Assembly (NCBI RefSeq): GCF_036711975.1 | Contig: NC_091971.1 | Location: 2,239,501 to 2,303,500, forward strand | Reading direction: 5' to 3' | Length of the DNA: 64,000 bases | Source of the DNA: Onthophagus taurus | Lineage: Eukaryota > Arthropoda > Insecta > Coleoptera > Scarabaeidae | In this document: positions 19,424 through 36,986 of the stretch, piece after piece | How positions within the stretch are numbered: the first letter of the stretch is position 1 | Layout of the letters: each line of letters opens with the position of its first letter | The notes under the pieces: generated by a model | What the model was told of the DNA's origin: nothing | What the model saw: only the letters and a program-made list of their open reading frames with translations | Databases searched by the model: none | Position numbers and translations under genes: made by a program

Positions 19424-22198
19424 ATGAAGTGTACAACGTGTGTGTTAGGAATTTGTTTATTAATTATTTCGGTGGTTTATGGACAAAACGTTTTAAATTG
19501 TGAAGATCAAGAAAATTGTGGGAAATGTATACAACAACCTGGTTGTGTTTGGTGTTCAGCTCCGGTAAGTACAAAATTTATAATTTGAAATTTGAATCAT
19601 TTCTTTTATTGGAAGATTTTCTTACTCACAACAAATGTGAGTAATCCGTTTCTGATACACAAATGACTAATACCTTTTGGAAAGTTGAGTTTTGTCATGT
19701 TGAATACGTTAAAATTTCTAAGAAATTAATTTTGTAAATATTGAGTTAATGATCACAAAGTTAATAAAATTTGTTTATTTTTTCTTTTAGAATATACCAG
19801 GAACTCCTCAATGTCGTTTAGAGATCGAAATCAAATCGTTGAAAATAAATTCTAACTGGTGTCCAGAAAATGAAATAATATCACCCCAAATCGAATACAA
19901 CATCACGCAAAATATCGATTTAAACGATGGTAAAACTGGATCCGCCGTCCAAATTAAGCCGCAAAGAGTTAAATTGCGATTACGTCGTGGGGAAGAATAC
20001 AAACTTTCATTTCAATATTCAAAAGCAGCGAATTATCCGATCGATCTATACTATTTGATGGATCTTTCGAAATCGATGGCAGATCATAAAGATAAATTGG
20101 CTCAATTGGGTAACGAATTAGTGAGCGTTATGAAAAATATTACAACCGATTTTCGATTGGGTTTTGGTAGCTTTGTTGATAAAATTGCACTTCCATTTAC
20201 AAGTACTCATCCAAGCAAGTAAGATTATATTATTTTCTTTAATTACTTTAATTATACATTATTTTTTCTATTTTAGAATAAATGAACCTTGCACAGGTTG
20301 CGTCCCAGCTTACAGTTACAAAAATCACCTTTCCTTAACAAGGGATCATCAAAAATTTTCAACCCAAGTCGGTAATGCAAAAGTATCTGGTAATTTAGAC
20401 TTCCCCGAAGGCGGTTTTGACGCTTTAATGCAAGCCATCGTTTGCAAAAATGAAATCGGTTGGAGAGAAGATGCCAGACATATGTTGATCTTTTCAACGG
20501 ATGCGGATTCGCACGTTGCGGGCGATGGTCGATTAGCCGGAGCTATTGAACCAAACGATGCTATGTGTCACCTTGAAAATAATAGTTACACAACGAAAGC
20601 TTTGCAATACGATTACCCTTCAGTTTCACATCTGAATTATGTAGCTAAACAAAATAATATTAACATTATGTTTGCTATTGCCGGGACAAATCAGGGTAGT
20701 AGTGATAGAGTTGTTAAATGGTACAACGATTTAAAACCGAATATTGAAAATTCTGTGGTTGGGGTACTGGAAAGAGATTCGTCAAATGTTGTACAATTAG
20801 TTCTTGAAAATTATAATGTAAGTATACATTTTTTTCATTTTTAAAATTTTAAATTTCAAACTAGCGCCATCTTTTGTTGACTAGTTGTTTCAATGATTTT
20901 GACAATAAAATAACCTATAAAATTCATTATTTTTTTTTTAGAAAATTGTTGATTCAATTCGAATAACGGACAACTCATCCAGCACGATCGACATTAAATA
21001 CGAATCCCCATGTTTTACTTTAGACGATAACATTTGCAATAACATAACAGTCGGAAAATCAGTAAATTTCACCGCTGTTATAAAACCACTAGAATGTTCA
21101 TCGGGTAAACAATTAATTCAAATAAAACCTGAAGGAGTATCGGAATCTTTAATTGTTGAATTAGAAGTAGAATGTAGTTGTTCTTGTGAAAAACAAGGTG
21201 AATATGTAACTTCATCGCCGGATTGTTCTTATAACGGAACGAAAATTTGCGGCGTTTGCGAATGCGATAAAGGATTTTTTGGGAAAAATTGCGAATGTAA
21301 CCAAGAAACGGCATCTTCAACAGACGATTCTAGTTGTAAACGGAAACCTACCGATTCGGAAGTTTGTAGTGGATTGGGAACGTGTAAATGCGGAAAATGT
21401 ATCTGCCAAGATAGACCTGGACAAGAATTTATTTATGGAAAATATTGTGAATGTAATAATTATTCATGCAAACGTATTAAAGGATTACTTTGTTCGGGTG
21501 AAGATCGTGGAAAATGCGAATGTGGGCAATGTTCTTGTTTACCAGGATGGACCGGAGATGCTTGCGATTGCTCCAACAGAAACGATACCTGCATTTCACA
21601 AACTGGTAATGGGTTAATTTGCTCAGGACATGGAAATTGCGTTTGCGGAGAATGCCAGTGTAATCAAGACGGTTATAAATACTCAGGAAATCATTGCGAA
21701 GAATGCGCTTCTTGCCCAGGACAAAGATGTGAAGAATTACATCCTTGCGTTGAATGTCAAGTTTTCAAAACTGGAAAATACAACGAATCTCACTGCGAAA
21801 TGGTTTGTATCGATTTTAACACAACAACAGTTACTAAAATTGAAGAAGACACTGAAAATCATGATATAAAAACCTGTCGCGTTTTCGACGATGAAGGTTG
21901 TGCCATTTTATTCCAATATCAATACGGTGCGAACAAAGAACTGATTGTTGTTGCACAAGATCATAAAGAATGTCCGGAACCAGTTGATATTCTAGTCGTT
22001 ATTTTAAGTGTAATTGCAAGTATCGTACTTGGTGGATTAATTTTATTAATTATTTGGAAAGTTCTTACTTCTATTCACGATAAAATTGAGTACGAAAAAT
22101 TTGAGAAGGAACGTAAAGAAGCAAAATTCGATGTTGGGCAAAATCCTTTATATAAAGGTGCAAGTACTACCTTTCAAAATCCCACTTATAGAAAATAA
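19424..22198 (+). CDS. Integrin beta subunit, tandem gene A
   Basis: Four exons (19424-19564, 19791-20218, 20277-20817, 20942-22198) encode 788 residues. The order is signal peptide, PSI domain (CGKCIQQPGCVWC), beta-I domain, hybrid domain, four cysteine-rich EGF modules, beta-tail, one membrane span (ILVVILSVIASIVLGGLILL) and a short tail. The tail has the conserved HDK..YEKFEKER segment and two NPxY motifs (NPLY, NPTY) for talin and kindlin. The beta-I MIDAS motif is DLSKS (about residue 138). The synergy-site residues (FVDK; N.D.PEGG) are present. The ADMIDAS pair that is Asp-Asp in human beta3 is Asp-His here. Beta subunits pair with alpha chains for cell-matrix adhesion. The tail differs from the highly conserved betaPS C-terminus of insects, so orthology to myospheroid is not assured. 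Confidence 0.95.
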
Positions 22199-22650
22199 TT
22201 TGTATTTTAAAGAGACTGATATTAATAATAATAATAAGCTATTCCTAAATCGTACACAACAAATTTGCCAAGTAATTTAATTATTTAGGAACACAATCGT
22301 TTATTGCCATCTTAAATTTATAAATCTAGATGTGTCTTATTTATTAAAAAAACTTTTATGCCAAAAAATTAAAGTCAATATTTTAATGATTGTACAGTGA
22401 ATAAATTAATATATTTAAATAAAAGTTCTATCTCAATCGTTCGTCTTTCTTTAAACATTAAATTGTTTTCCTTCGATATAAACAATTAATTAAAATTCCA
22501 AGCACACACATTTAAGAAAAAGAATACCAACATCCGGTACGTCAAACAAAAAACGGAAACCAAATACCACAAACACCGCGTTACTCACCAAAAACGTATT
22601 ACAACGAGATATAGAAGCTTAAAATAATAGATTTGTGCCACAATTGCAAA
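22199..22650. other. Spacer between integrin genes A and B
   Basis: These 452 bp contain polyadenylation signals of gene A (AATAAATTAATA and AATAAAAG near 22400-22425). The compact promoter of gene B must also lie here. No other feature is seen. Confidence 0.6.
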
Positions 22651-25600
22651 ATGTTTCTAATAAGTGTGTTCTATCTTTTAAACGTGATTTTTGTGAGCGC
22701 CAATAATAATATTGATTGTGAGAGTTTAATAACTTGTAATAAATGTATTCAACAGTTTAATTGTATGTGGTGTTCGGAGCCGGTAAGAATTGTTTCAATT
22801 TTTTAAAACGATAAAATCAATACGTTATTTCTTTAAAGATTAACATTGAACATAAAAAATGTCGTTTAGATACAAACGATCAAAATTTAACATCGAAATG
22901 GTGTTTACCAGAAAAATTAATGCATCCTAAACAATCCGTTGAAATTATAAACGATAAAAATTTTAACGATGGAAAAGATGGTGTTGCAGTTCAATTAAAA
23001 CCGCAATTAATAAATTTAAAACTACGTCTAGGAGAATCGTTTAATCTGCCTTTTCAATATTCAAGGGCTGCTAATTATCCGGTTGATCTTTATTATTTAA
23101 TGGATATGTCACATTCGATGATTAATCATAAGGAGAATGTAGCAAATTTAGGGAAAAAATTAGCTGAAGTTATGGTTAACATTACAACCGATTTTCGTTT
23201 GGGATTTGGTACTTTTGTTGATAAAACGAGTGCACCTTTTATAAGTATGCATCCATATAAGTAAGTTTTGAGTAAATGAATTATGGTAAAACTTTGATAT
23301 AATGGATCTCGTTAAAACGGGCTATTTAGCGCTAGATTGTTTGAAAATGTAACTTTTTCTTCGATTAAAGATGCCACTGTAACAGCAGGTGGTAATTGTA
23401 AAAGCGGTTTAGCTGTGCGTCATCAGACCTGCACTACAACAAATTGTTGTCAACAATTTAGAAATGAATCACAGTTAAAACTAGAACTAGCACTAGAACT
23501 AGAAACATTCGGGTTTAGCCCCACGTCTCTTAAGACAGCTAAACCCGAATGTTTGTAGTTCTAGGTGTAGTGTTAGTTTTAATGTCAGAACTAAAACTAG
23601 AACTAACATTAGACCTAGAAAGTTTAGGGTTTGGAACTAGACTTTAAATCCCAAAACACATATTTTCGGTATGCTTAAATCGGAAATTCATTCTCGACCG
23701 AAAATCGAAGATGTTTACAAACCAAACTCTTCCAGATTCTTCTCTCTCATCACTAAATTCATATTATTTTATTTTTATTATTAAGTATGTGCTGCCATCT
23801 ATTATCACCTTTAAGTACTTGAAAAGTGAAATATTTTAAGTTATGAAAATAATTAATTAAAATTGAATTGAACATAAAAATTATTAAAATTATTACTCAT
23901 ATGTTAAGAAATACATAAAAAATTGTTATATTATAGGGATTGTATTAAAAATTATAGTTGGAAAAATTTTGAGGTTAAAATTTAAAATTGACAGATAACT
24001 GTCAGTTTGATTTGTCAAGTTTAACGTTTTAAATTTTAATTAAATAAAATTGAATTGAACAATTAAAATAATTAATCATATGTTAAGAAATACATCAAAA
24101 ATTCTAGTGTAGAACGAGTTTAGCAGTCTAGCGACAAATCTAGCGCTGAATAACAAGAATTTTTTGTTCGCATTAAAAATTTTTTATATAACAAACATTT
24201 AGTTATAACAAACAGTCCCTTCGCCATATTAATCCGTTATATCAAAGTTTTACTGTAATTACAAACGCAAATACAAAATTTTTAGGTTAAATAATCCATG
24301 TACGAAACGGATGGAAGCTGGAAAATTTAAGTGTATTAAACCATACAGTTATAAAAACTATTTAAGTTTAACTAACAACACAAGCATATTTTCACAAAAA
24401 GTACAATCAGCAAGGCCATCAAGCAACGTTGATAGTCCAGAAGGTGGTTTTGATGCTTTAATGCAAGCAATAGTTTGTAAAAATGCTATTGGATGGAGAG
24501 AAGATGCAAGGCATCTTTTAATATTTTCAACGGACGCCGAATCTCACATTGCCGGAGATGGTAGATTGGCCGGAGTGTATTCCCCAAACGACGGCCAATG
24601 CAGATTAAACAATAACGAATATTTATTAAATTTACAATATGATTACCCATCAGTTTCCCATTTAAATCACATAGCTAAAGAAAATAACATCATCGTAATT
24701 TTTGCGATCGCCAATACCGTTAAAACGCGTGTAAAAAAATTTTACGAAAATCTAATCAAACACAAATTGTTCGAAAATTCGAAACTTGGAATTTTAGATG
24801 CAAGTTCAAACAACATTCTTAAATTGATTGTGGATAATTACGAAGTAAGAATTTTAAATAATTCCACGGATTTTTTTATAGATTTATTTTAATTTCAGAA
24901 AATTGTTGATTCGGTTTTAATAACATCAAACGCCTCAAAATCGGTTGATATCACCTATAAATCATCGTGTGGACAAGATAATAGTTGCACAAATATTCAC
25001 ATCGGAGATGTTATTAATTTCACAGCGACAATAAAACCGACGGAATGCAAATCGGAAGTTATCCAATTAAAACCTGAAGGTGTTGCAGAATCAGTTTTAA
25101 TCAATCTAACCGTTATATGCGAATGTGAATGCGAAAAACCTGGTCATTCCGGATTTATTCCATCATCTCCGAAATGTTCCGGAAAAGGATCCGAGGTTTG
25201 TGGCGTTTGTCAATGCGATCAAGGTTATTTTGGAAACACATGCGAATGCGATAACAACAAAATCATCAATATCAACACAACCGTTTGCCAGAAAGACGAA
25301 AACAGCCCGGTTTGTTCAAACAATGGCATTTGTAAATGTGGTACTTGCATATGCGACAAATCAATGTATGGGAAATATTGCGAATGCAATAATTATTCTT
25401 GTAAGCGACGAAAAGAATTGTTGTGTTCCGGAGAAGATCATGGCCGATGCGATTGTGGTGAATGTAAATGTTTTCCGGGATGGAAAGGAGATGATTGCGG
25501 ATGTTTAGATAAAGATGATTTGTGTATTTCACCAAATGGAAATGGACAAATTTGTTCTGGACATGGTACGTGCGAATGCGGACAATGTGTATGTAAAAAC

Positions 25601-26439
25601 GATGAAAATAAATATTTTGGGAAGTTTTGTGAGGAGTGTCCAAGTTGTGAAGGTCAAAGGTAATTTAATAGTAATATGGGATGTTTTAAAATCAAAATTT
25701 AAGAAAAAAAAAATAATAAAGATAACCAATTTAAAGTAACGAAATATAGATATGTTTAAAGAATGATAAGATACGAAGAAGCCCGGATGTTATTCACACG
25801 TTAATCATAAAAAGTTGATAAAACCAGGTTGTGTACTTTTGCTTTTCCGGTTCGCTTTTGCTTTTGAAATATCCCATATTTATAAAAGAAAAAGAATTAA
25901 TAATATTTTCCTAGATGTAACGATCTTCGTCCATGCGTTGAATGTCAAATATTTAAAACAGGAATTTACAATCAAATTGAATGCAAAAATAAATGTACAG
26001 AATTCAAAGCGAGCGAAATAACCAAAATACGCGAAGACAACGAAGATCTCGATATTAAGATATGTTCCGTATTCAATAATGTTAACTGCACAATTTTGTT
26101 TCAATATAAATACAATTTGGAGAACGAACTCGTGGTTGAAGTTCAAACTGAAAAGAGATGCTTCACGCCTTTAGATCTATTTGGTAAATTTCTTGATATT
26201 TATGAGTTTTTAAATACATAATATTGTTTTTAGTAATCGGACTTAGCATTCTTGGTAGCGTAATTTTGATTGGAATAATTACACTTATCATATGGAAAAT
26301 TGTCACAACAATTCATGATAAAGCGGAGTATGAAAAGTTCGAAAAAGAACGTCAGGAATCGAAATGGAACCCCGGAGAGAATCCGCTTTATGTCGAAGCC
26401 ACCAGAACATTTCAAAATCCGACGTACAGATTTACATAA
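22651..26439 (+). CDS. Integrin beta subunit, tandem gene B
   Basis: Six exons (22651-22782, 22839-23260, 24286-24844, 24899-25659, 25915-26183, 26234-26439) encode 782 residues with the full integrin beta architecture. The first three introns match gene A exactly. Two extra introns occur here: one in the last EGF/tail junction (GQ|R) and one just before the membrane span. The MIDAS reads DMSHS, but the ADMIDAS pair is Asn-His. The disulfide-bounded specificity loop of the beta-I domain is enlarged (C-X10-C, against C-X2-C in genes A and C). The tail keeps NPLY and NPTY. The second intron (1,025 bp) carries a Tigger-like element and palindromic repeats; splicing across it restores HPYK|LNNPC in frame. 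It is most likely a functional paralogue of gene A. Confidence 0.93.
23465..23640. repeat. Palindromic repeat, copy 5
   Basis: Two arms, AACATTCGGGTTTAGCC and GGCTAAACCCGAATGTT-like (23506-23552), surround a short CACGTCTCTTAAGAC centre. They are flanked by TAGAACTAG / CTAGTTCTAG tracts. The hairpin could be extruded or transcribed. Confidence 0.85.
23640..24020 (-). repeat. AT-rich module shared with endophilin B intron
   Basis: The stretch starting AGACTTTAAATCCCAAAACA and ending near CAGTTTGATTTGTCAAGTTT is the reverse complement of 43797-44230 and 44694-45155. It shows that this is a dispersed repeat and not integrin sequence. Confidence 0.85.
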
Positions 26440-26651
26440 TAAATTGTAATAATTATAGAACGCCAATAAAAATTTAGATTTAATGCTTCTTTCCACTAAT
26501 TTATCTAAAAGGTGCGATACCACCTCTTGATAAAATTATCATTATCATTAACCAAACATTGAACTTATTCAGTCTGCAAATAAATATTTACCTTTTTATC
26601 AAAATTCAATTTGTACATTTATATTTCAAAAATGTATCAGTTATAATCAAA

Positions 26652-29506
26652 ATGTTAACGAAATTGATGGTACTTCTTCTGTTAGTTCAGATTAATATTG
26701 CGCAAAATAATGATTGTCAACATGTAGCAACGTGTGGTGAGTGCATTCAAAAACCAGAATGTGTTTGGTGTCATGATCCAGAAGTAAGTACGCCGATTCC
26801 ATTTAATTAATGTGTCAATAATAACATATAACCAAATACAGGATAATACAAGGCACTGTCAAATCAAGAACATCTCCCAATGTAAATCAAAAGAAATTGT
26901 AAATCATACCTTAACAATCATAAAAGACAACGATCTATCCTCCGATATAAATTCAAAATCATTCGTTCAAATACAACCTCAACACGTTAAACTAACGATC
27001 CCAAAAAATCAAGAACACAGTATAAAATTTAAATTTGCCAGGGCTCAAAATCCTCTTGATCTATACTTTTTGATGGATGCGTCTTATACGATGAAACAGT
27101 ACAAAACATTAATATCGGAGTTGGTGGAAAAATTGGTTAAAGAAATTAAAGGCCATACCACTGAGTATAAATTAGGATTCGGGACATTCGTCGATAAAAT
27201 CGTCCCACCATTCAATTATGATGGGTAAATCTTATAAAGAATTGTTGTTGAAAGTCTTTAATAAATGAAATTTCAGGTATTCATCAAACCAATGCAAAGA
27301 ATGTATGAATGGGTACACTTTTAAGAACCAATTAAGTCTTACAGAGGATGTCGACGAATTTAAAATAAAGATAAACAATACTCCAACGGCAACTAACATA
27401 GACGCACCCGAGGGGGGTTTAGAAGCACTATTACAAGTTATCGCTTGCAAGAAAAAGATCGGATGGAAAGATAATTCTACAAGACTGGTTGTTTTCACAA
27501 CGGACGATTATTCCCATATAGCAGGAGATGGTAGATTAGGTGGAGCCATTCATCCAAGTGACGGTACATGTTATACAAACGAGAACGACGCTCACATATA
27601 TGATTATCCTTCTATTTCCCATATAAGTTATCTAGCAGAAGAGCATGGCGTACATGTTATTTTTGCAATTGCTGAAGGTAGCACTCGTACTGCAGAAGAG
27701 AACTACAAAATACAACAGAGTTATAAAGAAATGAGCAACAATGCTAGATTATCAAAATACAGTAAATTAACTAATAATAGCAACGATATTATTAAACTTG
27801 TTACAGAGACATACACGGTAAGTAATAAGAACGGAAATAGAGATAAATACATACAGTGAATTCAACATGAACATTCGGGTTTTAGCCTGAACTTTCTAGT
27901 TCTAAGTTTAGTGTTTGGTTTTACACTAAGAGTATCACTAGAACTAACATAAAACCTAGAACTAGAATCATTCGGGTTTAGCCGTCTTTAGAGACGTGCG
28001 GCTAAATCCGAATGTTTCTAGTTCTTGGTCTAATGTTAGTTCTAGTTTTGCACTAGCGCTATCACTAGAACTAACATAAGACCTAGAACTAGAAACATTT
28101 GGGATTAGCCGTCTTGTATCTAGTTCTAGGTCTAATGTTAGTTCTAGTGACAGTGGTAGTAGCACTAGTTAGCATAAGATATAACTATGTTGCATATTTT
28201 TATTGACCTGTATTATAGGAAATTTTACGATCTGTAAAAATGTCTCATAATTTTGATAAATCAAAATTCGAAGTGAAATTCAAAGCGAAATGTTCAAAAA
28301 ATTCCGATGTTGAAGAGAAAGATAATTGTGATAACGTTAAAATCGGCAAAGAAATTGAATTCGAAGCGATAATTAAACCAGTCGATTGTTCTGGAACTAA
28401 GGAACAATACGTAATAAAAGCGGACGGTATCGATGAAAGTTTAATAGTAGATTTGGAGGTAATTTGCAACTGTACTTGTGAAAACGAGATATCAAAAAAC
28501 CCAGTTGAAAACTGCAGTAACGCTGGCTACAAAAAATGCGGACAATGTGTATGCAATGACGGGCATACCGGAATATATTGCGAATGTTCCACAGAAGACA
28601 AAGCCAAAAATGCCACGTGTATTGATTCTGATACGAAATTAACATGTAATAACAAAGGAATTTGTAATTGTGGTGTATGTGAATGCAACGCTAATTATTA
28701 TGGTACGTTTTGTTTGTGCGAAGACGTATCGTGTCCTAGAAAAAATGGTGAACTTTGTAGCGGAAAAGATCACGGAAATTGTAAATGTGGAAAATGCGAG
28801 TGTTTACCTAGTTGGAGCGGAGAAGATTGTTCATGTCTAAAAGCAAAAACTCCGTGTATTGCTCCTTATAGCGATGGGACACACTGTTCGGGACAAGGAG
28901 ACTGCATTTGTGGAAAATGTCAATGCAAAACTGATTATTTTGGAGAATTTTGTGAAGGCTGTAAAGGATGTGAATGGTACAAAAATTATTCATTATATTA
29001 TTTAAGTTTAATTTTATTTATATTATTTTAGGTGCGATGATTTAGATCCGTGTGTAAAAGCGTATTTAGAAGATTCAAACGTTGCAGAAGAAAAAAGAAT
29101 AAATTGCAGCAGTGTTAATATAATTCCAAGGAGTAATGCTAGCAGTGAGTTTTACGATAACGAATGGAAGAAATGTTTATTATCAGGAACGTTAGGCTGT
29201 AACACAGCTTATAAATATAAAATCGATGATAAACAAATTTTAATAGAAATTGGCGAAGAAATTTGTCCATTTGTAGCTAGTATAGAGGGGCTTTTATTAG
29301 TCACACTCCTACCAATCTTAATAGGAGGTATAATCGCTTTCTTAGCATGGAAAGCTATCGTTACCGTCAAAGACGGAAGAGAATACGCACGATTTTGTGA
29401 GAAAAAGAAACTAGAAAAATGGAGCGCTGAGGAAAATCCTTTGTACAAAGAAGTTAAAGTTTGTTATAAAAACCCAACATTTCATGATAAATCAACAAAA
29501 TCATAA
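26652..29506 (+). CDS. Integrin beta subunit, tandem gene C (divergent)
   Basis: Five exons (26652-26783, 26842-27224, 27277-27817, 28219-28976, 29032-29506) encode 762 residues. The layout is the same as genes A and B, with the EGF/tail intron shared with B (here EW|C). The start lies only 212 bp after the stop of gene B. This is the most diverged of the three. The beta-I MIDAS reads DASYT, with Thr replacing the second Ser, and the ADMIDAS pair is Gln-Tyr. Synergy-site residues (FVDK; N.D.PEGG) and the later MIDAS Asp (TTDD) are kept. The tail has NPLY but ends with NPTF in place of NPxY, and the membrane-proximal Asp of KDGREYARF is retained. It reads as an intact gene, so altered metal regulation is more likely than loss of function. 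Confidence 0.93.
27862..28165. repeat. Palindromic repeat, copy 6 (double)
   Basis: This copy lies in intron 3 of integrin gene C. At about 27964-28021 there is a nearly perfect hairpin: GAATCATTCGGGTTTAGCCG, loop TCTTTAGAGACGTG, then CGGCTAAATCCGAATGTTTC. TAGTTCTAGGTCTAATGTTA tracts occur on both sides in both orientations. Confidence 0.9.
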
Positions 29507-33505: not shown

Positions 33506-34561
33506 ATGTCTGAAAAGTTTTGTTTACAATTAACTCTTTCCGATAATGCCAAATCGATTGCCGAAAAAGATCTTAATGAAACAGAAGAAAATGTGAAGAA
33601 TGCGTTAATTCAATTAAAAGAATTATTGGAAAACGATAAAACGATTTATTATAAAATTGATGATGAATTTCTTAAGATATTTCTTCGGCCATGTAAATTT
33701 TATGCAACAAGTGCTTATGAATTGGTGAGTTTTAAAGATTTTCAGTTTTTATTTAAAAAAAAATTAAAATGTTAAAATGGAAATGTGCGTGCATTGATAA
33801 TTATTAGGAAGAATCTTTATGTAATTATGTCGTAACCTTATAATTTTCTTTTGTTCGTTTAGATGAAACGCATCGCCAATTTTCGTGCTAAATACAAAAC
33901 TTTATTGTACGATTTAGTTCCATCTCAAGAACGCGATGCTATAGTTAATCACAACTTGATTAATGTTTTACCAGATAGGGATCAATTGGGAAGAAGAGTA
34001 ATGATTGTTTATTGTGGAGGTAATTTTTTATATCTACACAACTCAAAAAATAACAAAATTTTTTTTATTCCAGAAAATTGGAACACCTCAAAAGTTTCTT
34101 CAGATCAAATATTTCGATTATTTTATTTAATCCATTTATTAGCCATACTAGAGCCAGACACTCAAATAAATGGAACCGTTGTAATAATGGACTACAAAGG
34201 TATGGGATTAAAACAAGTGGCAGCTTTAACTCCAGCTTTTAGCATGAAACTTTTGGGATTTATCCAAGATGCTATGCCGTTAAGATTAAAAGAGATCCAC
34301 ATGGTGAATAACCCTTGGATTTTTAAAACGGTTTGGGCAGTCTTTAAACCTTTCATTAAGGAAAAATTGGGGAAAAGAATTCATTTCCATGAAAACAAAA
34401 TGCCTTCTTTGCATAAATTTATTGATAAATCATATTTGCCGAAAAATTACGGTGGAGATCTTCCTGAAATTAATTATGGTGGGAAGGAATGGTATCCGGT
34501 TATGGAGAAACATATCGACCATATAAAAGAATGGAACACTTATGGTTTAGTTGAAAAATAA
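33506..34561 (+). CDS. CRAL-TRIO (Sec14-like) lipid-transfer protein, tandem gene A
   Basis: Three exons (33506-33724, 33863-34019, 34074-34561) encode 287 residues. There is an N-terminal helical CRAL-TRIO-N region (to about residue 85), then the lipid-binding domain. That domain includes VVIMDYKGMGLKQVAALTP and IHMVNNPWIFKTVWAVFKPF, the signature of the alpha-tocopherol-transfer-protein/clavesin group of small cytosolic carriers. I chose the ATG at 33506 because it aligns with the paralogue at 36076; an in-frame ATG at 33461 would add 15 residues. The insect family is very large, so the ligand cannot be assigned. The 54-nt second intron is absent from the neighbouring copy. Confidence 0.93.
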
Positions 34562-36075: not shown

Positions 36076-36986
36076 ATGGCTTTTGTTATCGACACCTCAG
36101 CCCCATCGGCTGAAACTCAAAAAATTGCAGCTGAAGAACTTAGGGAAACCCCAGAAAATGTTGCAGCTGGTTTAAAAGAACTTAAAGATCTTTTGGCGGC
36201 TGATACATCCATAACTTACGATACCAGTGATGATTTCCTTATGATTTTCCTTCGCCCAACGAAATTCTATGCTAAAAGTGCTTATGAATTAGTGAGTTTT
36301 CTTTAAATATAATTCAAAATTTAAATTATAATTATTAATTATTTTAGATGAAAAGAATTGCTGATTTCAAAAAGAAACACTACGAGCTTTTCGGAGAATT
36401 ATCCCCAGAAATGGAAAAAGATGTCTTCATGAACACCGATGTCCTCAATATTTTCCCAAATCGTGATCATAAAGGACGTAGAATTCTTATGGTCAAAATG
36501 GGCGGAAACTGGAAACCATCCGAAATTAGCACCGATCAAATCTTAAAAATCTTGTATATGCTTCATTTGGCGGCTATGTTAGAACCGGAAACGCAAATTC
36601 GCGGGGCTGTAGTTATCATGGATTACAAAGACATGGGAATGAAGCAAGTAACAGCTGTCTCACCAGGATTCGCCATGAAATTAATGACTTTCATCCAAGA
36701 AGCTATGCCATTAAGATTGAAAGAAATTCACATGGTTAATAACCCAATGCTTTTTAATATGGTCTGGAAAATTATTAAACCATTGGTTAAAGAAAAATTA
36801 AACAAAAGAATTCATTTCCACGGCTCTAAAATGGATTCACTTCACGGTTTCATCCCACCAAGTCATTTACCAGAAGATTATGGCGGCCAATTACCAAAAA
36901 TCAATTATGGTGGTAAAGATTGGTACCCAGCTGTTGAAGGACATCTTGCTCACTTTGAAAGATGGAGGAAATGTGGAAAAAATTAA
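36076..36986 (+). CDS. CRAL-TRIO (Sec14-like) lipid-transfer protein, tandem gene B
   Basis: Two coding exons (36076-36291, 36348-36986) encode 284 residues. It is closely related to gene A throughout: both share MKRIA.F..K, EPETQI.G.VVIMDYK, MPLRLKEIHMVNNP and NYGGK.WYP. The family and likely role are the same, a cytosolic carrier of a hydrophobic ligand. It lacks the second intron of gene A, where the code runs MGG|NWKPSE without interruption, so an intron was lost here or gained in gene A. The codons are more GC-rich than those of gene A and the match to the family is stronger, which may mean higher expression. A spliced 5' UTR exon lies upstream. Confidence 0.95.

Follow-up and report, generated by a model that had tools for sequence, protein, structure and literature searches.

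We analyzed a 64,000-nucleotide stretch of the genome of the beetle Onthophagus taurus (contig NC_091971.1, forward-strand positions 2,239,501 to 2,303,500; hereafter the window), which contains a tandem head-to-tail triplet of intact integrin beta genes, designated A, B, and C, on the plus strand at positions 19424-29506 (Table 1). All three genes carry an altered acidic residue pair at the cation site adjacent to the metal ion-dependent adhesion site (ADMIDAS and MIDAS, respectively) of the betaI domain. We reconstructed the gene models directly from the genomic letters, using GT-AG introns, and each splices to one open frame. In each of the three genes, Pfam searches identified the betaI domain (PF00362), the beta cytoplasmic domain, and EGF-type domains. 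Together with the single open frames, these domains confirm the proposal of the first-pass annotation, made from the letters alone, that three complete integrin beta genes lie here head-to-tail. The Integrin_B_tail model, which passes in A and B, gave no match in gene C at E <= 1e-5. The start of B follows the stop of A by 452 bp, the start of C follows the stop of B by 212 bp, and AATAAA hexamers are present downstream of each of the three stop codons. Cys occupies 56 columns in seven or more of the nine aligned betas (listed below); A and B each have Cys at all 56, and C at 54. The cytoplasmic tails contain the motifs NPLY and NPTY in A and B, and NPLY and NPTF in C. The second motif of gene C had been pointed out previously as a departure from NPxY; it is indeed present, but it is neither abnormal nor defective, as human beta7 likewise has an NPxF motif (NPRF) there. 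Judging from the spliced sequences, A, B, and C probably are functional integrin beta subunits.

Table 1. Coordinates of the integrin beta triplet and of other features mentioned in the text (window positions unless a contig or stretch is named; ORF, open reading frame)
Feature	Position	Strand	Basis and details
Gene A, integrin beta, 788 aa, 4 exons	19424..22198	+	spliced ORF; Pfam Integrin_beta 328.1 bits, Integrin_B_tail, Integrin_b_cyt
Gene A exons	19424-19564, 19791-20218, 20277-20817, 20942-22198	+	spliced ORF
Gene A MIDAS/ADMIDAS motif DLSKSMADH	20061..20087	+	ADMIDAS codons 20082-20087 = GAT CAT, D-H
Gene A beta5-alpha6 loop, Ala at T311	20680..20706	+	+7 residues vs betaPS; alignment, coordinates checked
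Gene B, integrin beta, 782 aa, 6 exons	22651..26439	+	spliced ORF; Pfam Integrin_beta 320.5 bits, Integrin_B_tail, Integrin_b_cyt
Gene B exons	22651-22782, 22839-23260, 24286-24844, 24899-25659, 25915-26183, 26234-26439	+	spliced ORF
Gene B MIDAS/ADMIDAS motif DMSHSMINH	23103..23129	+	ADMIDAS codons 23124-23129 = AAT CAT, N-H
Gene B beta5-alpha6 loop, Ala at T311	24710..24727	+	+4 residues vs betaPS; alignment, coordinates checked
Gene C, integrin beta, 762 aa, 5 exons	26652..29506	+	spliced ORF; Pfam Integrin_beta 238.8 bits, Integrin_b_cyt
Gene C exons	26652-26783, 26842-27224, 27277-27817, 28219-28976, 29032-29506	+	spliced ORF
Gene C MIDAS/ADMIDAS motif DASYTMKQY	27076..27102	+	ADMIDAS codons 27097-27102 = CAG TAC, Q-Y; S123T
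Gene C beta5-alpha6 loop, Ala at T311	27671..27721	+	+10 residues vs betaPS; alignment, coordinates checked
Palindromic repeat copy, gene B intron	23474-23620
Palindromic repeat copy, gene C intron	27890-28160
CRAL-TRIO domain gene	33863-34558
CRAL-TRIO domain gene	36348-36983
betaPS-type gene, two 85-nt exons	C1:36930484-36930400 and 36926963-36926879		same phase, AG/GT borders
betanu-like gene	C1:40757655-40773788		motif DLTYSMKDD
betanu-like gene, tandem array in large intron	L010:21-3410

The ADMIDAS pair and the beta5-alpha6 loop

We aligned nine betas, comprising A, B, and C, the betaPS-type and betanu-like genes of the same genome, and human beta1, beta3, beta6, and beta7, and adopted the beta3 numbering. 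The alignment reproduces the motifs read previously for the three genes, together with their stepwise change, and the codons could be located (Table 1). At positions 126 and 127, the ADMIDAS pair is Asp-His in A, Asn-His in B, and Gln-Tyr in C, whereas the betaPS-type gene, the betanu-like gene, and all four human betas have Asp-Asp, so that the change is derived within the triplet as judged from these nine sequences. The graded loss described by the first-pass annotation holds for the residues themselves but not for A having lost the whole pair: where typical ADMIDAS-bearing betas have two Asp, A retains one, and B and C retain none. The objection that the same residues might already be absent from an ordinary betaPS is not borne out in this one-species comparison, as the betaPS-type gene of the same genome, with the motif DLSKSMEDDK, keeps both Asp.

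The remaining cation-site residues are largely preserved. The MIDAS residues D119, S121, and S123 are all present in A and B (DxSxS), and the reported exchange of the last MIDAS Ser for Thr in gene C was verified as S123T (DxSxT). D158, N215, D217, P219, E220, and D251 are retained in A, B, and C; the earlier statement that such residues are kept was accurate, but they had been named after the synergy site, the correct label being the synergistic metal-binding site (SyMBS), or ligand-induced metal-binding site (LIMBS). The (Asp/Asn)-Ser motif of the beta6-alpha7 loop is Asp-Ser in A, Asn-Ser in C, and Ser-Ser in B. Residue 252 is Ala in A and B, as in human beta6, and Asp in C, as in human beta7 and, according to PMC3792891, beta2.

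Altered motifs could also result from a wrong exon, an alternative exon, or an assembly error at these codons, and alternative exons appear to occur in the family, as the betaPS-type gene has two interchangeable-looking 85-nt exons just downstream of the motif. In the triplet, however, each motif lies inside an exon of 383-428 nt with GT-AG borders at betaPS intron positions, a tblastn search of the window with the motif segment found only three strong places (remaining matches E 0.1 or worse), and the same trend is seen in three separate genes, which leaves an artefact highly improbable.

A second change adjoins the acid pair. All three copies have Ala at T311, a position occupied by Thr in betaPS and in each of the human betas aligned and by Lys in the betanu-like gene, and all three have a lengthened beta5-alpha6 loop (Table 1). 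The shared T311A together with the lengthened loop, absent from the first-pass annotation, provides better evidence for a rebuilt site. D127 and T311 are the two triplet-wide changes that meet at the metal site, but they are not the sole changes. Taking betaPS and the human beta1, beta3, beta6, and beta7 as ordinary betas, 85 betaI columns, D127 included, are invariant among these five; of them, 14 are changed in A, 14 in B, 28 in C, and 27 in the betanu-like gene, and eight (108, 127, 226, 265, 284, 310, 311, and 353) are altered in all three copies. Nine of the 14 changes in A are mild (V161A, I226L, L245M, V247I, I265A, G271A, S284A, I307M, and V310I); the other five are E108A, D127H, Y281T, T311A, and S353D.

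The strictness with which these positions are kept was estimated from the bits lost against the Pfam model upon single substitutions in a betaPS segment. His costs 2.3 bits at D126 and 2.2 bits at D127, compared with 4.2 at D119, 3.2 at D158, 3.7 at N215, 4.4 at D217, 3.7 at E220, and 3.0 at D251, and with 0.3 and 1.0 at the flanking E125 and K128. Asn at either D126 or D127 costs 1.5 bits, Gln at D126 1.8, Tyr at D127 2.9, and Thr at S123 2.3. A coral beta has EDL in place of DDL (PMC2397394). Conservation of the ADMIDAS pair is evident but looser than at the other cation positions tested.

The replacing residues might have retuned the site, with His or Asn at 126 and 127 still binding a cation or sensing pH, so that the metal preference would be changed rather than lost. 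His is a ligand of transition metals. A has D126 next to H127, B has Asn-His, and H127 is common to A and B at an overall protein identity of 55.9%. Asn is moreover able to coordinate Ca2+ (PMC6889490). One residue in common between A and B is, however, expected at their overall identity, the Gln-Tyr pair of C is unlikely to bind a cation, and human beta8 with Asn-Asn has no visible ion according to the same paper. We regard such retuning as quite unlikely.

Relation to the betaPS-type gene and evolutionary rates

The genome search with PF00362 yielded at least 11 exon matches assignable to at least five genes, namely the triplet on contig C6 and two genes on contig C1. The latter are putatively named betaPS and betanu, after the Drosophila integrins, from the tree and the introns. 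The betanu-like gene keeps the Asp pair of the ADMIDAS, but D251 is replaced by Gly and P219 by Leu, and Lys occupies both the beta6-alpha7 tip and T311. By its sequence it would be the mirror image of the triplet, and among the five betas found, a fully ordinary site seems to be present only in the betaPS-type gene. The large intron of the betanu-like gene contains a tandem array of 7.8 copies of units of about 423 bp (91% matches), built of 21-bp units, and similar ORFs repeat at the end of another stretch of the same gene (L009).

In the maximum-likelihood tree of the nine betas, which is unrooted, has its insect rows from this species only, and gives long branches to the betanu-like gene and C, the three copies form one group (support 100/99), and the branch separating the triplet and betaPS from the rest is supported at 90/88. 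Omission of C leaves A, B, and betaPS together (88/87), and omission of the betanu-like gene leaves the triplet as one group (100/100). With positions matched within a tolerance of three columns (one gene C intron is one column off), each of the three introns of gene A has a betaPS counterpart at the same place and in the same phase, and two of these introns are absent from the betanu-like gene; the introns at column 211 (phase 2) and column 406 (phase 0) occur in A, B, C, and betaPS but not in the betanu-like gene. The triplet is one clade, most likely derived from a betaPS (mys)-type gene. An intron at column 694 (phase 2) is common to B and C and absent from A, betaPS, and the betanu-like gene, which favors a grouping of B with C or a loss in A. 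In the tree without the betanu-like gene, neither B+C (p-AU, approximately unbiased test, 0.34) nor A+B (p-AU 0.39) was rejected as the order of splitting within the triplet.

The triplet thus resembles betaPS (Drosophila mys type) in the domain order, the Cys columns, the two NPxY/F motifs, and the three introns of A. It differs in the loss of the full acid pair and of T311, both present in betaPS, and in having a single version of the specificity loop inside a larger exon, in place of the two alternative-looking exons of betaPS. These two 85-nt exons encode alternative specificity-loop segments, like the Drosophila 4A/4B exons, and are presumably used alternatively. A betaps4B is mentioned in PMC9218073. 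The genomes of Spodoptera litura and Bombyx mori also contain five betas (PMC10379305, PMC9218073). In S. litura, however, beta4 has a branch to itself and the betanu group includes beta2, beta3, and beta5, whereas the present triplet probably groups with betaPS. Pattern searches for relatives outside the genome, based on an alignment of three window exons and one betanu-like exon, confirmed none among 116 stretches of the viral_contigs collection and 220 of genome_contigs, a weak negative, as these collections by their descriptions hold viral and prokaryote DNA. Searches for alpha subunits with two models matched the same two loci, an incomplete result that gives no count of the alpha genes.

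The three copies have evolved at different rates. Their terminal branches measure 0.29 (A), 0.90 (B), and 3.19 (C). Relative-rate counts with betaPS as outgroup were 86 for B against 45 for A (p 0.0004), 145 for C against 61 for A (p 4.5e-9), and 114 for C against 66 for B (p < 0.001). With human beta1 as outgroup, the counts were 60 to 55 for B and A (p 0.71), 124 to 54 for C and A, and 120 to 52 for C and B. As C is fast under both outgroups and B under betaPS only, the acceleration of C is robust and that of B is not. The proportions of nonsynonymous and synonymous differences (pN/pS) were 0.295/0.757 for A-B, 0.427/0.715 for A-C, and 0.431/0.737 for B-C. Since synonymous sites are at or near saturation, we claim only that pN is well below pS, which points to purifying selection overall.

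These rates bear on whether the ADMIDAS change has regulatory meaning at all, or is one of many losses in redundant duplicates drifting at different speeds under relaxed constraint. Such drift would account for the 28 of 85 invariant betaI columns altered in C, for its longest branch in the triplet, for the unequal rate counts obtained with betaPS as outgroup, and for the two conserved Cys columns missing from C, and even A has the non-conservative changes E108A, Y281T, and S353D at invariant columns besides D127H and T311A. However, A is slow and retains all Cys columns and 71 of the 85 invariant betaI columns, yet D127 and T311 are already gone. C, whose betaI domain shares just 38% identity with that of betaPS, still has D119, S121, D158, N215, D217, P219, E220, and D251. 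Furthermore, pN is far under pS in all three pairs, and B is not faster than A with the human beta1 outgroup. We consider relaxed constraint somewhat unlikely as the explanation.

Predicted consequences for Ca2+ control and affinity

As a whole, the data are tentatively best explained, at slightly short of even chances, by a betaPS-derived functional triplet with an altered Ca2+ clamp at the ADMIDAS. We start from the observed sequences, gene structures, clade, and derived state among the nine betas, and infer from them the order of changes, the loss of the ion, and the effect on affinity; a partner alpha subunit and a cell type would likewise be matters of inference. A betaPS (mys)-type gene was most likely duplicated, a subsequent tandem duplication giving the triplet. 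In its ancestor, D127 would have changed to His early, together with the change of the neighboring T311 to Ala and the lengthening of the loop, and D126 would have been lost later, in B and C; the H127 common to A and B suggests this order. Because the MIDAS and SyMBS are retained (S123T in C), as are the two NPxY/F motifs, ligand binding via Mg2+ and coupling to talin and kindlin are expected. The Ca2+ clamp on the alpha1 helix would be weakened in A and probably absent in B and C, resulting in a poor response to Ca2+/Mn2+ exchange and a shifted affinity set-point, somewhat like human beta8.

Human beta8 has Asn at both ADMIDAS positions and no ADMIDAS ion, and it has Gln-302 where other human integrins have Thr; a hydrogen bond links Gln-302 to the Asn at position D127 (PMC6889490). 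In the fish beta8 listed in the same paper, only the Asn at the D127 position is invariant, the D126 position being Asp (twice), Glu, or Ala (PMC6889490), so that gene A, with D126 kept and D127 replaced, resembles fish beta8. The triplet, too, has lost ADMIDAS acids (one in A, two each in B and C), and the beta5-alpha6 Thr is replaced in all three. The differences are also evident. Whereas in beta8 Asn-Asn and Gln occur together with a modified beta6-alpha7 loop (PMC6889490) and a distinctive cytoskeletal adaptor, the triplet has Asp-His, Asn-His, or Gln-Tyr with Ala, a longer beta5-alpha6 loop, and NPxY/F tails. B and C, but not A, lack an acid side chain at both 126 and 127, and a replaced beta6-alpha7 Asp/Asn is found in B only. 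By its sequence, the triplet would work partly like beta8, and we do not class it as a beta8-like member. The gain in affinity brought about by Mn2+ was 12-fold for alphaVbeta6, 3-fold for its NN mutant, and 2-fold for alphaVbeta8 (PMC6889490).

Published mutants point in both directions. Mutation of the ADMIDAS raised binding in alpha4beta7 and alphaLbeta2, which have Asp at 252, and lowered it in alpha2beta1, alpha5beta1, alphaVbeta3, and alphaIIbbeta3, which have Ala (PMC3792891). In beta3 with A252D and one ADMIDAS Ala, binding was slightly above wild type in Ca2+ and less in Mn2+, with adhesion like wild type and poor spreading, and A252D with both ADMIDAS Ala nearly abolished binding and adhesion (PMC3792891). 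Exchange of DD for NN in alphaVbeta6 increased affinity 6-fold in Mg2+, whereas Ala at the ADMIDAS positions decreased it in alphaVbeta6 and alphaVbeta8 (PMC6889490). The sign of the shift may accordingly differ within the triplet, A and B being of the A252 type like beta1 and beta3, and C of the D252 type like beta2 and beta7, although beta7 retains the acid pair. The comparison of the 252-type families would predict weaker binding for A and B and stronger binding for C; the beta3 triple mutant would predict little binding for C. The opposite outcomes for NN and Ala, and for alphaVbeta6 and beta8, indicate that both the subunit and the substituted residue determine the sign, and the direction of the affinity effect cannot be read off the sequence. 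The suggestion of the first-pass annotation that the paralogues are differently regulated or constitutively primed is in line with an altered acid pair in intact betas, but not as uniform priming, which these outcomes make one option among several.

Several points weigh against a betaPS-derived triplet with an altered Ca2+ clamp. A keeps D126 and the beta6-alpha7 Asp-Ser, so that its site may still hold a cation. The lower cost of His at D126 and D127 than at the six other cation positions indicates less than strict conservation of the pair across the family. The link between the triplet and betaPS has moderate support, in an unrooted tree. T311 was equated with Gln-302 of beta8 by loop position and not by superposition, and position 302 is always hydrogen-bond capable in the beta8 species listed in PMC6889490, whereas the Ala of the triplet is not. 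Finally, Asp put into beta8 raised affinity 2-fold without restoring headpiece opening (PMC6889490), so that the ADMIDAS alone does not explain beta8.

A more specific version of the altered clamp, which we think improbable though worth stating, is that this betaPS-derived class rebuilt the ADMIDAS as a unit, D127 and T311 together and then D126, converging on vertebrate beta8 while keeping talin-type tails. The copies would then be a graded Ca2+-insensitive set with diverging set-points, C standing on a D252 background where ADMIDAS loss raises adhesion. In the literature examined, the role of the ADMIDAS as restraint or support has come from engineered mutants and one natural exception, beta8. 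A literature search lacking most subscription journals found no insect beta without the ADMIDAS acids described in titles or opening abstracts. The tandem copies, with one acid changed in A and both changed in B and in C, and with an intact betaPS-type gene in the same genome, constitute a natural experiment, which could test whether residue 252 and the beta5-alpha6 Thr set the sign of ADMIDAS loss. If the altered clamp is real, an animal lineage would be tuning beta-subunit affinity via an altered regulatory metal site.

Repeats, contig ends, and neighboring genes

Copies of a palindromic repeat with arms of about 45-48 nt, 87-90% complementary, lie in introns of B and C (Table 1). The repeat is very common in the genome (2675 first-look candidates, of which 40 were scored, with 126 matches). 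TTGGG repeats occur in three of the seven contig-end stretches examined; in the genome search, an exact match to the 25-base TTAGG pattern occurred at one internal site and the TCAGG pattern nowhere. Published occurrences of the TTGGG motif include some beetles as well as a lacewing, a damselfly, and a bee (PMC8233369, PMC12564400). The prokaryote library NCBIfam gave no match for two window stretches. Downstream of the triplet, two adjacent CRAL-TRIO domain genes form another tandem pair.

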